IMG/VR virus record: IMGVR_UViG_3300045927_000062
Location: 1 to 23,154 of that record
DNA length: 23,154 nucleotides
Strand: one strand, 5' to 3'
DNA from: a virus
Of this stretch, positions 9,618-22,573 are shown in pieces. The notes beneath the pieces are model-generated. The model was not told the origin of the DNA. It did no database searches and saw nothing but the letters and a program-made list of their open reading frames with translations. Made by a program: the position numbers and the translations under genes. How positions within the stretch are numbered: position 1 is the first letter of the stretch; every line of letters begins with the position of its first letter.

Positions 9618-12206
9618 ATGGCCTTGACGGCCTCCTTCGTCGCGGATTTTAGTGCGCTAACCGCGGCGTTCAATAAAGCCACGACACAAGCGGAAACATT
9701 CCAAAAGAGCGCGGACGCGGCCGGGGTCGCGCTCAACACCATGGTCGACGCCCTCTCGAGCGGGCCGGCGATCGAGAACGCGGCAGATCTCGCGACCGCG
9801 GTGGAATCCATCGAGCCCGCGGCCGCCGGCGCCAGCGACAGTATCGAGAAGGTGTCGAAGGCGGCCGATGATGCCGGGAATAGTTTCCAATTGTCGGCAG
9901 GGTCGATCGCGGCGTTCGCGGCCGGATTCGTGACCCTCAATGAAGCATGGAAACTCGTCAAGACTGGGTTCGGCGTCGTGAAAGATTTCCTGGTCGAGAG
10001 CGTCGAGCTCGCGGCGAAGTCGTCAGGCGTCTACAGCGCGAAGATCGCAGAGCTCACCACCAACTGGCAGAACCTACAGGTGTCGATCGGGCAGGCGGTG
10101 ACACAGAATCAAACCGTCATAGCGCTGTTCGATGAGGTCTCGACCGCGATTAAGGGGATGCAGGAAGGATTCAGCGGGAATAGAGACACGATGAACCTCG
10201 TCTCCGATACCGTCATTCTCCTCGTGCAGTCGTTCTCGCTTCTGATGAACGTGATCGCGCAGCTCGCCTATCCCATCCGGCAGACGATTAAGGAATTCAA
10301 GTTCTTTCCGGATGCTGCGGCGAAGGCGGTCCATGCCGTTCTGCTGATGGAACAAGCGCTCGTGAAGGTCGGAATCGGATCGGCCGAAGGCGTGCGAAAC
10401 CTACAAGCGGCCGAAGCGACCTTACGCGGCTATAGCGCCAGCATGCAAACCGGCGTCGAGGCCACCGATAAGTTTATCGAGGTCTCGAGCACGGTTGCGA
10501 CGAAGGCATCAGAGCTCGCAGAGCGGCTCAAAGAGACCCGCGGCCAGGTCGTGGCGCAAGCGGCCGCGGTCGAGGATTCCACCGCCGCCGAGAAGGAAGC
10601 GCTCGGGGCGCTCAATAAGAAAGTCGAAGCGGAGCTCCGATCGGCGCGGGCCACGATCGCGAGCGCCGGAGCGACCAAAACGGTCACGATCGCGACCGAA
10701 GATTATGCGGTCGCGATGCGTCTGCTCGAGGGCTCGACATCCGGCGCGGTCTCTGGCATCGAGAAACTTCCCCCGGCGCTCGATGATACGGTGTCGGCGC
10801 TCGAACAATCTCGCGGGGCGGCCGGCGGGCTGGCGGTCGAGTATCGCAAGGTGGCGAGCGCTGCGGAAGAACTGCCGCCGGCGCTCGAGACCGCGGCCGC
10901 CAGTACGCGAAGTTTCGGCAGCACGATGACCGAGTATTTCGGCGGCGAATTCGGCCGCACGGTCGTCGGGGCGCTTCAAGGTGGGGGATCGGTCATTCAG
11001 TCCGCTATGGCGGGCCTGGGAAATGCGATCGTCGGGAAAGATTCGGCGCTCGCGGGGACGATTTCGAAGGGTGTCTCTAGCGTGTTCGGCTCGAGCGGGA
11101 TGATGGGCCAGATCGGGTCGATGATTGGCTCATTCGTTCCGGCAATCGGGCCGATGCTGGCGCCGGCGATCGAAGGGGTCACCAAGCTCTTTAGCTCTCT
11201 ATTCGGGGGCGGCGAAGAAGCACAGAAAGTCTCGCCGCTGCGGGATGAGTTCTTCGCGCTCGCCGGCGGGATCGAGACCTTAAATCCGAAGGTCGAGAAA
11301 CTGACGGGAAATTTCGCGCTGGTCGAGGGCGTTCTTCGGGCTGAAACGGTCGAGGAATATAACGCGGCGATCGGCGAGCTCAACGGGCTGTTCGCCATGG
11401 AATCGGCCGCGATCGAGGAAGTCACCGCCACGGCGCAGAAGTACGGGATCACGATCGAGGAGCTGGGTCCGGCCATGCGCCGGCAGGAGCTCGACAAACA
11501 GGCGCAACAGCTCTACCGCGATTGGGAGATGCTGAACGCGGCCGGCATTAAGACGTCCGTCATTACGAAAAAAATGGCGGACGAGGTCAACAAGTACGTC
11601 AAGCAGGCGACGAAGATGGGCGGCGAAGTGCCGGCCGCCATGCGTCCCATGCTCGAGCGCATGGCCGAAATGGGCGTGCTGACGGACAAGAGCGGCAAGA
11701 AAGTCACCGACCTGGAAAAGAGCGGGATCAAGTTTGCGATGAGCATGAGCGACGGGTTCAATGCGCTCATTTCGGAAGTGCAGCAACTCTCGAATGTCCT
11801 GGCAAAGTCGCTCGGGGTCGAGCTCGAGCGGACCGCCGATCGCGTGGAAGCGATCCCGGATGAAGTGAATGTCCAAGTGAAGTATGACGATCCGGGGCCG
11901 CCACGGCATAGCGGGACATCCGTCCCCGGCTACCAGGGCGGCACGGGCGGGAAGTTTGTCGACTTCGGCGCCGGCTCGCTCGTGATGCTCCATGGCAGGG
12001 AAGCGGTCGTCCCGGAGTCGACGGTGCGGCCGGCCGGCCTGTCGCCGACAGCCGCGGTCGCGGGCTCGAGCGCGGGCGTGACGATCATCATCAACGCGAA
12101 CGGGAGTTTTTTTGATACGCCGGGAGACTTGCAGCGCCTGGCGGCGAAGGTCAACGAAGCGCTCACGGCGAAGTACGGGCAGACGAACCGGCTGCGGGCG
12201 GCGTGA
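9618..12206 (+). CDS. Tape measure protein
   Basis: At 862 residues this is the longest gene, as expected for the tail-length ruler. The N-terminal half is Ala-rich helix/coiled coil (FSALTAAFNKATTQAETFQKS onward), with a hydrophobic segment near residues 92-112 (SIAAFAAGFVTLNEAWKLVKTGF). A Gly/Phe-rich hydrophobic stretch lies at about 490-530 (GQIGSMIGSFVPAIGPMLAP, then LFSSLFGGGEE). The C-terminus has FVDFGAGSLVMLHGREAVVP, a signature shared with many siphophage tape measures. Using about 0.15 nm per residue, the tail would be near 130 nm. ATG 9618 follows GAGG and the end of the frameshifted chaperone. No peptidase or lytic domain is obvious. Confidence 0.92.
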   Translation: MALTASFVADFSALTAAFNKATTQAETFQKSADAAGVALNTMVDALSSGPAIENAADLATAVESIEPAAAGASDSIEKVSKAADDAGNSFQLSAGSIAAFAAGFVTLNEAWKLVKTGFGVVKDFLVESVELAAKSSGVYSAKIAELTTNWQNLQVSIGQAVTQNQTVIALFDEVSTAIKGMQEGFSGNRDTMNLVSDTVILLVQSFSLLMNVIAQLAYPIRQTIKEFKFFPDAAAKAVHAVLLMEQALVKVGIGSAEGVRNLQAAEATLRGYSASMQTGVEATDKFIEVSSTVATKASELAERLKETRGQVVAQAAAVEDSTAAEKEALGALNKKVEAELRSARATIASAGATKTVTIATEDYAVAMRLLEGSTSGAVSGIEKLPPALDDTVSALEQSRGAAGGLAVEYRKVASAAEELPPALETAAASTRSFGSTMTEYFGGEFGRTVVGALQGGGSVIQSAMAGLGNAIVGKDSALAGTISKGVSSVFGSSGMMGQIGSMIGSFVPAIGPMLAPAIEGVTKLFSSLFGGGEEAQKVSPLRDEFFALAGGIETLNPKVEKLTGNFALVEGVLRAETVEEYNAAIGELNGLFAMESAAIEEVTATAQKYGITIEELGPAMRRQELDKQAQQLYRDWEMLNAAGIKTSVITKKMADEVNKYVKQATKMGGEVPAAMRPMLERMAEMGVLTDKSGKKVTDLEKSGIKFAMSMSDGFNALISEVQQLSNVLAKSLGVELERTADRVEAIPDEVNVQVKYDDPGPPRHSGTSVPGYQGGTGGKFVDFGAGSLVMLHGREAVVPESTVRPAGLSPTAAVAGSSAGVTIIINANGSFFDTPGDLQRLAAKVNEALTAKYGQTNRLRAA

Positions 12207-18328: not shown

Positions 18329-19081
18329 ATGTCCCACAAGATGACTGAGCTGGTCTGGAATCTGGATGCGGATGTGGTCACGACGAACGAGCGGATCATC
18401 CTGGTCTGCCTGGCCGACTACTGCCGTGAGCACGGCCGGGAGGCGTGGCCGGCGTGGTCGACGATCGTGACGCGGACCTCGCTGGGGCGAAACACCGTCT
18501 GGCGGTGCCTGAACCGGCTCAAGCGGATCGGCATCCTCCAGGCGTCCGGCCGGACCCGGCGCGGCACGGTCGTCTACCGTCTGAACGTGGATCGAGTGGT
18601 CGATCTGGGCCGGACTCGACCAGTCCCAAAGCTTGGGACTGGTGGGACTGGTGGGACTGGCTCAGAAACTCCACTAGTTCAACAGCTTAGGACTGGTGGG
18701 ACGCTCCCAGCTCCCTCCCGTCCCACCCAGAAACTCGACCAGTCCCACCCAGAGACCCCCCCAGTCCCAAAGCTTGGGACTGCACCAGTCCCAAAGCTTG
18801 GGACACGATCCGGTATTGATCCGGAATTGAACCGGAATAAGAGCGCGGCTGTCGCCGCGAAGAGTCTCTCCCCCTTTTCGGAGAAGACAGAAAAGGCACC
18901 GGACAAAGCCAAAGCCAGACCGAGAACCTGGAACCCCGACCGGACGACGAAGCACGAACCGGGGAAGACCGACTACGGGGACGATCAACCCCCGCTCCTC
19001 ACGGACCACCCCGACCTGATCAAAGCCTGGATTGAACGCTGGTATCCCGAAATGCTCGAGGAAGGCCTGGTGGAGGACTGA
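18329..19081 (+). CDS. Replication initiator-like winged-helix protein with internal origin
   Basis: The 250-residue protein begins with a winged-helix domain (residues about 5-90: MTELVWNLDADVVTTNERII through STIVTRTSLGRNTVWRCLN, then RLKRIGILQASGRTRRGTVV), as in phage O-like replication initiators (helix-turn-helix 36). Residues about 97-160 are low-complexity and contain PVPKLGT three times, because the DNA beneath them is a repeat cluster. A charged linker and an acidic C-terminal helix (DLIKAWIERWYPEMLEEGL) follow, possibly for contacting a helicase loader. ATG 18329 has AGGACGG upstream. Position between the Cro-like module and the RecT gene fits an initiator. As in lambda O, the protein probably binds the iterons within its own gene. 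Confidence 0.75.
   Translation: MSHKMTELVWNLDADVVTTNERIILVCLADYCREHGREAWPAWSTIVTRTSLGRNTVWRCLNRLKRIGILQASGRTRRGTVVYRLNVDRVVDLGRTRPVPKLGTGGTGGTGSETPLVQQLRTGGTLPAPSRPTQKLDQSHPETPPVPKLGTAPVPKLGTRSGIDPELNRNKSAAVAAKSLSPFSEKTEKAPDKAKARPRTWNPDRTTKHEPGKTDYGDDQPPLLTDHPDLIKAWIERWYPEMLEEGLVED
18619..18839 (+). other. Candidate phage replication origin (iterons plus 11-mers)
   Basis: An inverted repeat with 11-bp arms (ACCAGTCCCAA, AGC, TTGGGACTGGT) occurs at 18619-18643. A degenerate copy lies at 18673-18697 (5 mismatches of 25), and near-perfect copies at 18760-18784 and 18784-18808, the last two 24 bases apart. Extra half-sites GTGGGACTGG fill 18643-18660, with more at 18690-18750. Directly after come three 11-mers, GATCCGGTATT, GATCCGGAATT and GAACCGGAATA (18807-18839), a lower-GC, GATC-bearing block that could be the unwinding element. 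Iterons plus a melting region inside an initiator gene is the lambda-type origin plan. Confidence 0.75.
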
Positions 19082-19082
19082 A

Positions 19083-19832
19083 ATGGCTGACGCGCTGCGC
19101 CTCGTCGACGCGACTCCGGCTGTCACCGCGGATCAGGTGGCCCTCATCAAGACGACCATCGCCAAGGATGCGACCGACGACGAATTGAAGTTGTTCTTCT
19201 ACGACTGCCAGCGCCAGGGCGTGCATCCGCTCGACCGGTTGATTCATTTCACGAAGCGGGGCGGGAAGTACACGCCGATCACCTCCATCGACTTTCTCCG
19301 TCAGCGCGCGGCGCAGACGAACGAGTGCGCCGGGATCGACGACGCCGTCTTCGTCGGCGATCCGAAGACGCCGGCCTTTGCGGCGACGGTCACGGTCTAT
19401 CGGCTCGTCCAGGGCCAGCGCTGCGCGTTCACGGCGACGGCGCGCTGGAGCGAGTACAAGCCCGAGGCGAACGATTTCATGTGGGCGAAGATGCCGCACG
19501 TCATGCTGGGCAAGGTGGCCGAAGCGCTGGCGCTCCGCAAGGGCTTTCCCCAACAGCTCGCCGGCCTCTATGCGACCGAGGAGCTCGACCAGGCGGCGGG
19601 CCGCGAGCCGATCCCCGGCGCGGAGACCACGATTTCCGCCGCCCAGCGCAAGCGCCTGTTTGCGATCGCGCTCTCTCACGGCTGGGGGAAGACCGACATG
19701 CAGGCCGCCTTGCTCGAGCGCTTCGGCCTGCGCCGGACGGCGGACATTCGCGCCGCCGACTACGACGAGATCGTGCGCGCGTTCGAGCAGCCGCCTGCCG
19801 CGGTCGCGCCGGAGGCGGATCAGCCGTTCTGA
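19083..19832 (+). CDS. bet: RecT/Bet-family single-strand annealing protein
   Basis: The 249-residue recombinase starts at ATG 19083, just after the upstream stop, although the frame is open from 19032. The family core is clear: LIKTTIAKDATDDELKLFFY, a Cys-Arg-Gln-Gly-Val-His-Pro segment, TSIDFLRQRAAQTNECAGID, CAFTATARWSEYKP and WAKMPHVMLGKVAEALALRK with FPQQLAGLYATEELDQA. The C-terminal 60 residues (ISAAQRKRLFAIALSHGW, then ALLERFGLRRTADI and YDEIVRAFEQ) form an added helical domain. It anneals complementary ssDNA during phage recombination or replication restart. No partner 5'-3' exonuclease is recognisable in the window; the DUF1064 nuclease at 21876 is the only other candidate. Confidence 0.88.
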   Translation: MADALRLVDATPAVTADQVALIKTTIAKDATDDELKLFFYDCQRQGVHPLDRLIHFTKRGGKYTPITSIDFLRQRAAQTNECAGIDDAVFVGDPKTPAFAATVTVYRLVQGQRCAFTATARWSEYKPEANDFMWAKMPHVMLGKVAEALALRKGFPQQLAGLYATEELDQAAGREPIPGAETTISAAQRKRLFAIALSHGWGKTDMQAALLERFGLRRTADIRAADYDEIVRAFEQPPAAVAPEADQPF

Positions 19833-20282: not shown

Positions 20283-20295
20283 CGAATTGTGCTGT

Positions 20296-20533
20296 GGCAA
20301 GGTCTGGGGCGGCAAGGCTAGGTGGGGCAGCGTTCGGTGCGGTGTGGCACGGCACGGCATGTCATGGTCCGGTCTGGCGCGGCTTGGTGTGACTGGGTCC
20401 GGTAGGGTGTGGCAGGGCGCGGTACGTAGCAGGCTGGGTTAGGCGCGGCGGGATGTGGCAAGGCTTGGTCAGGCAAGTCATGGGTCTGGCAGTGGTCGGG
20501 TTTGGCGGGTTCGGGTCTGGTATGGCAGGGCTT
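20296..20533 (+). repeat. Pentanucleotide-phased G-rich array A (GGYNN)
   Basis: This gene-free stretch can be cut into 5-base units without slack. From 20296 to 20425 there are 26 consecutive units (for example GGTCT, GGCAC, GGTGC, GGCAT): 22 start GGY, base 1 is G in 25 of 26 and base 3 is C or T in 25 of 26, while bases 4 and 5 vary. After a one-base slip near 20431 the pattern continues to about 20533 with further slips. The period is not a multiple of three, so frames through it are not coding. It lies just upstream of the gene at 20555. Confidence 0.88.
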
Positions 20534-21179: not shown

Positions 21180-21446
21180 GGCGTGGTCTGGTCGGGTGAG
21201 GCATGGTCGGATGCGTCGGGGCCGGTTTTGGTCGGGCGCGGTTTGGTGCGTCATGGTACGGTGAGGCCAGGCCGGATCAGGTCCGTCATGGTCGGGTGAG
21301 ATCCTGCCGTGTCAGGGTTGGGTATGGCGGGTTGGTGGCGGGGCAAGCTCGGGTCCGGTTCGGTGCGGCATGGCATGGTCGGATCAGATAGGGCGTGATT
21401 GGGTCGGCTTCGATTAGGCGGGGGCATGGTCGGGTTCGGCAGGGTA
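21180..21446 (+). repeat. Pentanucleotide-phased G-rich array B (GGYNN)
   Basis: The second array follows five bases after the stop of the 206-aa gene. From 21180 to 21304 there are 25 consecutive 5-base units (GGTCT, GGTCG, GGTGA, GGCAT, GTCAT and others). Base 1 is G and base 3 a pyrimidine in all 25; 18 are GGY. The pattern then slips phase and continues (for instance GGTCC GGTTC GGTGC GGCAT GGCAT GGTCG) to about 21446. Same strand bias and same consensus as array A, but not a direct copy. No gene is credible in it. Confidence 0.88.
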
Positions 21447-21898: not shown

Positions 21899-22241
21899 GT
21901 ACGGAGCGCGCGCGCTCGAGCTCGAGGGGATCCGCTTTGACTCCAGGCGGGAGGCGGCACGGTATCGGGAGTTGCAGTATCTGACGGCGGCCGGACTGAT
22001 TCAGGAGCTCGAGGTCCATCCGCGCTATCCGTTGATGGTACTGGCGCTCTATCAGGATGGACCGCCGTGGGTGTTTCGCACGGTCGGGCACTACACCGCA
22101 GATTTCCGATATGTCGACGTCAGCTCCGGCGAAGTCGTGGTAGAGGATGTGAAGAGCCGGCCGACCAGGACGACCGCCTATCGATTACGGAAACGCCTGG
22201 TGGAAGCGATGCACGGTGTGGCGATCCGCGAAGTGGATTGA
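21876..22241 (+). CDS. DUF1064-family nuclease-like protein
   Basis: The 121-residue protein matches the phage DUF1064 pattern: NKYGARALELEGIRFDSRRE, AARYRELQYLTAAGLIQELE, HPRYPLMV, then HYTADFRYVDVSSGEVVVED and VKSRPTRTTAYRLRKRLVEA. Asp in ADFRY and the later E-D-V-K fit a PD-(D/E)xK-type active site. Family members are suspected endonucleases in phage replication/recombination regions. The start overlaps the mini-ORF. It may cut or resolve DNA in concert with the RecT protein; not proven. Confidence 0.82.
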   Translation: MNASRRNKYGARALELEGIRFDSRREAARYRELQYLTAAGLIQELEVHPRYPLMVLALYQDGPPWVFRTVGHYTADFRYVDVSSGEVVVEDVKSRPTRTTAYRLRKRLVEAMHGVAIREVD

Positions 22242-22246
22242 CGGCG

Positions 22247-22573
22247 ATGCAGTATTGTTCGGCTCCGGGCTGCTCGAGTGTGGTGCGATCCGGTCGGTGT
22301 CGGAAGCATCTCGGGTCGAACGATCAATTGCTCGGCAAGCGCTGGCGCCGGCGATCCGTGGCGTTTCGACAGCGCTATCCGTTATGCGGGATGCGGGCGA
22401 ACGGGGATCGACCGGTGATGTCGCGGTGTTTCGAAGGAGGACGAAGTACCGTGGCGACACAGGTCGATCACGTTCGGCCGCACTCTGGCGACCCGGCGCT
22501 CTTCTGGGACGAAGCGAACTGGCAATCGCTGTGTACCGCGTGCCACATGCGCAAGACGAGAGCGGGATTGTGA
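22247..22573 (+). CDS. HNH endonuclease
   Basis: The 108-residue protein has a Cys-rich N-terminus (CSAPGCSSVVRSGRCRKH), then RYPLCGMRANGDRPVMSRC, and the HNH core VDHVRPHSGDPALFWDEANW with Asp74-His75, Asn91 and CTACHMRK (Cys96, Cys99, His100). Six cysteines support zinc binding. ATG 22247 begins the Cys-rich part; upstream frame is a shadow of the previous gene. HNH proteins next to the small terminase are part of the cos-cleaving packaging machinery in HK97-like phages, and this gene would be upstream of terS if the genome ends are joined. Confidence 0.88.
   Translation: MQYCSAPGCSSVVRSGRCRKHLGSNDQLLGKRWRRRSVAFRQRYPLCGMRANGDRPVMSRCFEGGRSTVATQVDHVRPHSGDPALFWDEANWQSLCTACHMRKTRAGL

Follow-up and report, generated by a model that had tools for sequence, protein, structure and literature searches.

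Positions 18619–18839 of the window (the whole 23 154-nucleotide stretch of viral DNA analysed here) are most probably, with a probability of about 0.87, the replication origin of a temperate phage, located in the lambda style inside the gene for the replication initiator. This proposal, made in the initial annotation, has emerged as the likeliest reading: the gene belongs to an initiator family and the repeats within it are laid out as in lambdoid phages. The lambda paradigm thereby reaches beyond the lambda O family and takes in many HTH_36 phage initiators, which are often labelled only ‘helix-turn-helix’ or ‘hypothetical’ in databases, and the layout provides a rule for locating the origins of such phages from sequence. 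The features of the region are the following.

18329..19081, + strand: initiator gene, 250 amino acids (HTH_36, phrog_1032, phrog_391, AlphaFold2 model)
18614..18994, + strand: linker region, predicted to be disordered (pLDDT about 36–66), whose first half contains the candidate origin
18619..18643: iteron dyad 1, perfect 11-bp arms, ACCAGTCCCAA-AGC-TTGGGACTGGT
18642..18649, − strand: half-site AGTCCCAC
18651..18658, − strand: half-site AGTCCCAC
18673..18697: iteron dyad 2, degenerate, 7/11 arm matches over 25 bp
18696..18703, − strand: half-site CGTCCCAC
18719..18726, + strand: half-site CGTCCCAC, the first of three + sites
18741..18748, + strand: half-site AGTCCCAC, in a codon phase that differs from that of the dyads
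18762..18782: iteron dyad 3, CAGTCCCAAAGCTTGGGACTG; 9/11 arm matches over 25 bp (18760–18784)
18784..18804: iteron dyad 4, inner GTCCCAAAGCTTGGGAC intact; 8/11 arm matches over 25 bp (18784–18808)
18807..18839, + strand: three 11-bp direct repeats with GATCC, GATCC and GAACC boxes, candidate unwinding or loading element
19083..19832, + strand: next gene, RecT-type annealing protein (PF03837, E=1.6e-19)

The initiator and its linker

Judged by profile matches, the gene at 18329–19081 is a winged-helix (HTH_36) phage replication initiator that belongs to phrog_1032 and is related to the O-like phrog_391. The Pfam match to PF13730 (HTH_36), at the N-terminal winged helix, is marginal (E=1.6e-05, 25.1 bits, with a cut-off of 25); the phrog_1032 profile (‘replication initiation protein’) covers most of the protein (residues 1–238, E=9.2e-17), and phrog_391 (‘replication initiation O-like’) is matched with E=1.1e-12. 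According to Pfam, PF04492 (Phage_rep_O), which is present in lambda O, is absent from the product, and its C-terminal part has no significant match. Other initiators share no more than about 22–32% of their sequence with the product, and neither an IMG/VR protein search nor a plasmid search yields a close relative.

The product comprises a winged-helix N-domain (amino acids 1–95), a linker (96–222) and a short helical segment in the C-terminal part (228–244). In the AlphaFold2 model, built with 33 relatives, the N-domain is a confident winged helix with pLDDT mostly in the 80–97 range, and the pLDDT of most of the linker, from about amino acid 101 to 220, is about 36–66. The iteron array maps to this linker, which is predicted to be disordered and which, being a tolerant stretch between domains, can carry signals at the DNA level.

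The repeats

The previously reported repeats are found at 18619–18839, within the initiator-like gene, and their abundance is far outside the range expected by chance. The gene contains 12 exact copies of GTCCCA/TGGGAC, compared with a mean of 0.92 under codon shuffling and 0.63 under synonymous recoding, and none of the 2000 randomised genes under either null model reaches 12. In the whole 23 kb, there are 21 such hexamers, 11 of which fall within 18623–18804. Dyads with perfect 7-bp arms number 4, compared with 0.34 expected under codon shuffling (5/2000) and 0.82 under synonymous recoding (16/2000). The initial annotation described four iterons with 11-bp inverted arms, one of them degenerate; the arms are perfect only in dyad 1, with 9/11, 8/11 and 7/11 matches in the other three, although dyads 3 and 4 retain the inner GTCCCAA-AGC-TTGGGAC. 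The extra half-sites that it mentioned are present as listed above, and the + strand half-sites at 18719, 18741 and 18763 follow each other in 22-bp steps. The exact 21-bp dyad, for which IMG/VR contains no match elsewhere, is new. At 18331–18336 (+ strand), a lone GTCCCA half-site core coincides in part with the initiator start codon; this weak signal could reflect chance or autoregulation.

The three direct repeats, GATCCGGTATT, GATCCGGAATT and GAACCGGAATA, start at 18807, 18818 and 18829. A tandem triple of 11/12-mers appears in 0 of the 2000 genes randomised by codon shuffling and in 0 of the 2000 recoded synonymously, and the GA[AT][TC]C chain at 18807–18839 is the only one on the + strand of the 23 kb window. 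The three boxes lie 3′ of the iterons and on the same strand, with a spacing within the 11–13 bp range. Compared with those in relatives, the boxes are atypical, with two of the three being GATCC, as opposed to the commoner GAAYC, and with a spacing of 11 rather than 12–13 bp. The lower GC content ascribed to the repeats is borne out, at 0.47 for 18806–18841 vs 0.62 for the gene. The proposed check of duplex stability gives a divided answer: at 18806, a 35-bp window belongs to the least stable 1.7%, whereas the 50-bp and 80-bp windows rank at 17% and 10%, respectively, which is not extreme. Because the block is not exceptionally unstable over 50–80 bp, simple melting is no more likely than a sequence-specific role of the boxes. 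The other proposed check, GC skew, is uninformative, with the minimum and the maximum at the contig ends and no extremum at 18619–18839.

Conservation of the layout in related phages

The initial annotation predicted that the same layout would occur with different iterons in related phages, and this is the case in dozens of relatives. The set of 217 initiator genes, including that of the window, was gathered from named phages, IMG/VR and species genomes and reduced to 68 representatives, which are mutually related, so that their counts are not independent events; 46 of the 68 have a significant array of their own in the linker (codon-shuffle p<0.05). Among these 46, the array occupies more than one codon phase in 44 and both strands in 36; in several relatives, all array sites are oriented the same way (7:0, 12:0, 11:0). 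TCCCAA-type hexamers number 382 in the linkers of the representatives, compared with 126 expected under synonymous recoding or 65 under codon shuffling, and show no excess in amino acids 1–80 (19 vs 24.7 expected).

The iteron sequence varies by clade (CTAGTACCAA, ATCCCAAA, CCCCAAAA, CCCGTTTT, GTCCCAAA), with a CCCAA/ACCAA core common to many. The half-site is not peculiar to the window phage: at least three exact copies of GTCCCAA are present in 12 representatives, namely, the window, Burkholderia phage Bcep176 and ten others, so GTCCCAA is a standard type for this initiator family. Bcep176 gp11, with the same N-domain family and 32% identity to the 18329 product, carries AACAGTCCCAAA repeats in the same place of the linker, 22 bp apart, which is the spacing at 18719/18741/18763 in the window. 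Escherichia phage phiV10 p43 also shares the HTH_36 N-domain family and the place of the repeats, but differs from the window in its CCCGTTTT-type repeat and a DnaT-like C-domain.

The box triple across phages

In most of the relatives, three GAAYC boxes spaced by 12 or 13 bp are located directly 3′ of the iterons, usually in a block of lower GC (e.g. 0.44 vs 0.65 for the gene in Thermus phage Cumys). When 9–15 bp spacing is allowed, the triple (GA[AT][TC]C) is found on the + strand in 41 of 64 representatives, in some of which the pattern had been seen before counting, and on the − strand in 10, compared with 6.0 expected from synonymous recodings (maximum 11) and 0.3 from codon shuffles. A second test, independent of protein similarity, was therefore performed, in which three copies of AGAACC in steps of 13 and 12 bp were searched for across all of IMG/VR, with steps of 15 and 10 bp as the control. 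The search retrieved 19 stretches, compared with 1 for the altered spacing, and 16 of the 19 lie within ORFs for replication initiators or primosomal proteins (L256, L257 and L260 were assigned by near-identical translations). Four of the 16 contigs were already in the gathered set, and the other 12 form about six independent groups, with matches to HTH_36 (L248, L251, L252), to DUF1376 (L249, L253; a run of GAACCA hexamers makes the box spacing less telling in this group) or to an O-like PHROG only (L263). In L252, the boxes are read as EPSFRTVHRT, in a frame other than that of the common QNQSLEPVIEP.

Two of the retrieved contigs merit a separate description. In L252 (− strand ORF 78–1142), an initiator gene contains GGGGGGACA/TGTCCCC repeats with the AGAACC boxes directly after them. 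In L263 (11681–11830, − strand ORF 11299–12177), the AGAACC boxes of a distant O-like initiator gene come after dyads of the GTCCCAAAGGGAC type; the half-site is similar to that of the window, yet the protein has no HTH_36 match.

The box triple thus recurs, at the sequence level, in many phages that are only distantly related, and a common role in opening the DNA is possible. An incomplete search of the open-access literature, with subscription journals outside its scope, found no description of it. The iterons are clade-specific but the box triple has a fixed spacing, and iteron recognition and opening or loading therefore look like separable modules. A bolder conjecture, for which the odds are somewhat unfavorable, is that the triple is a common origin part across differing iterons and initiators (HTH_36, DUF1376 primosomal), with hosts from Thermus to proteobacteria, that would be a counterpart of the oriC 13-mers or the DnaA-trio and would be read by host DnaA, the helicase loader or the helicase as a shared partner rather than by the initiator N-domain. 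If this is true, the iterons are free to vary while the loading element is kept.

Alternatives to an origin

The contention that the repeats keep codon phase holds for the three PVPKLGT dyads only: the + strand half-sites start in codon phases 2, 1 and 0, and the 11-mers, whose length is not divisible by 3, fall into phases 1, 0 and 2. Given that half-sites and 11-mers are spread over all three phases, selection acts on DNA, not on protein, and the constraint on the 18619–18839 repeats is at the DNA level. The converse possibility, that PVPKLGT and GTGGTG are functional peptides and the DNA repeats their by-product, can draw on the frame common to the three dyads and on peptide repeats, such as NDPKNG, in many relatives. 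It is very unlikely, considering that the same protein recoded synonymously yields 0.63 half-sites instead of 12, that relatives read the same boxes as NLS/NLP, EP or RT, and that the linker is predicted to be disordered, in addition to the occupation of all three phases.

An operator array for transcriptional (auto)regulation would suit the modelled N-domain, a generic winged helix with many repressors among its best structural matches, as well as the half-site core overlapping the start codon. However, the array lies 290–480 bp inside the gene and adjoins the conserved lower-GC box triple, and the layout recurs with differing iterons in genes of replication-initiator families, all of which makes an operator very unlikely. 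A regulatory structure in the initiator mRNA, or a single-strand hairpin element, would account for the + strand RNA folding better than shuffles (z=−6.0), but a strong fold is expected of any inverted half-site array, and the arrays with a single orientation in several relatives (7:0, 12:0, 11:0) indicate that the sites are conserved and the hairpins are not; the chances of such an element are minimal. Just as improbable is the chance presence, within the initiator gene, of a partition-type site or of mobile palindromes that were inserted there: duplication could yield near-identical tandem dyads, but distant initiators from many hosts have differing site sequences at the same location, and the 21-bp dyad is not found elsewhere in IMG/VR.

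Comparison with known origins and a possible mechanism

The origin reading places the window next to lambda. In lambdoid phages, including the Stx phages P27 and 933W, the middle of the initiator gene contains iterons whose ends are inverted, followed by an unwinding region (PMC7466680). The window shares with ori-lambda (NC_001416) the inverted-end iteron array inside the initiator gene, and a block of lower GC, a candidate unwinding region, comes after it; the middle of the protein is tolerant in both, and the ATCCC...GGGA ends of the lambda iterons are similar to the TCCC/GGGA core of the window. The differences are also clear: lambda O is a Phage_rep_O protein in Pfam, whereas the window protein is HTH_36; by direct comparison, the lambda tract is an A-rich run of 23% GC without the GA[AT][TC]C box triple; and the neighbor of the initiator gene is the loader gene P in lambda but RecT in the window. 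A scan of the products of part of the window ORFs revealed no helicase and no P-like loader.

In Escherichia coli oriC, three short GATC-type direct repeats beside the initiator sites constitute the unwinding element. The window boxes are similar in arrangement, but differ from the 13-mers in their GA[AT][TC]C core at 11–13 bp and in being without T-rich tails. The GATCT consensus of the oriC 13-mers is quoted in the report on phage P1 (PMC9948254), where synonymous mutation of an AT-rich tract with a 13-mer-like GATCT motif showed oriL to lie inside repL. As described there, oriL is, like the candidate in the window, an origin within an initiator gene, but it has the AT-rich tract with the 13-mer-like motif instead of an iteron array and depends on a different initiator (PMC9948254). 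For the RepA protein of mycobacteriophages, the authors only suggest an origin in or upstream of repA (PMC7157519).

In the likeliest reading, the N-domain of the 18329 product would bind the AGTCCCAA half-sites and dyads, and an O-some-like complex would be built over about 190 bp. As in lambda (PMC7466680), initiator dimers on the dyads might cause the array to bend and the block next to it to open. The place of the boxes, their lower GC and their conservation suggest an opening or loading element, so that the GA[AT]CC block, with its 11-bp spacing, could serve for duplex opening and/or for engagement of the first single strand by the initiator, host DnaA or the helicase loader. The C-terminal part would then recruit the host helicase. 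What opens the phage origin and loads the helicase becomes a question that is testable via synonymous recoding.

Genome context

Apart from the initiator and RecT genes, the window encodes an integrase, a Cro/CI-type regulator, an excisionase-type HTH protein, a resolvase-type protein, HNH and terminase, a combination that indicates a temperate tailed-phage genome. The RecT relatives, 41–74% identical (L059–L071), have no initiator homologue in the stretches fetched and, therefore, the replication module appears to be mosaic, i.e. swapped. The HNH gene is at the right end (22067–22573) and the gene for the small subunit of terminase at the left (174–659); with these usual neighbors at opposite ends, the contig may represent an almost complete genome that was cut from a circle. 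In the gene at 670–1248, positions 726–1019 encode about five imperfect, Pro/Gly-rich repeats of 20 amino acids (GIWGGANQPFPGYGLPG), corresponding to a 60-bp tandem DNA repeat. Two intergenic G/T-rich tracts, at 20290–20510 and 21200–21400, contain many short imperfect words of the GGT/GGC type, and the former includes a 15-bp array at 20431–20491 (TRF).
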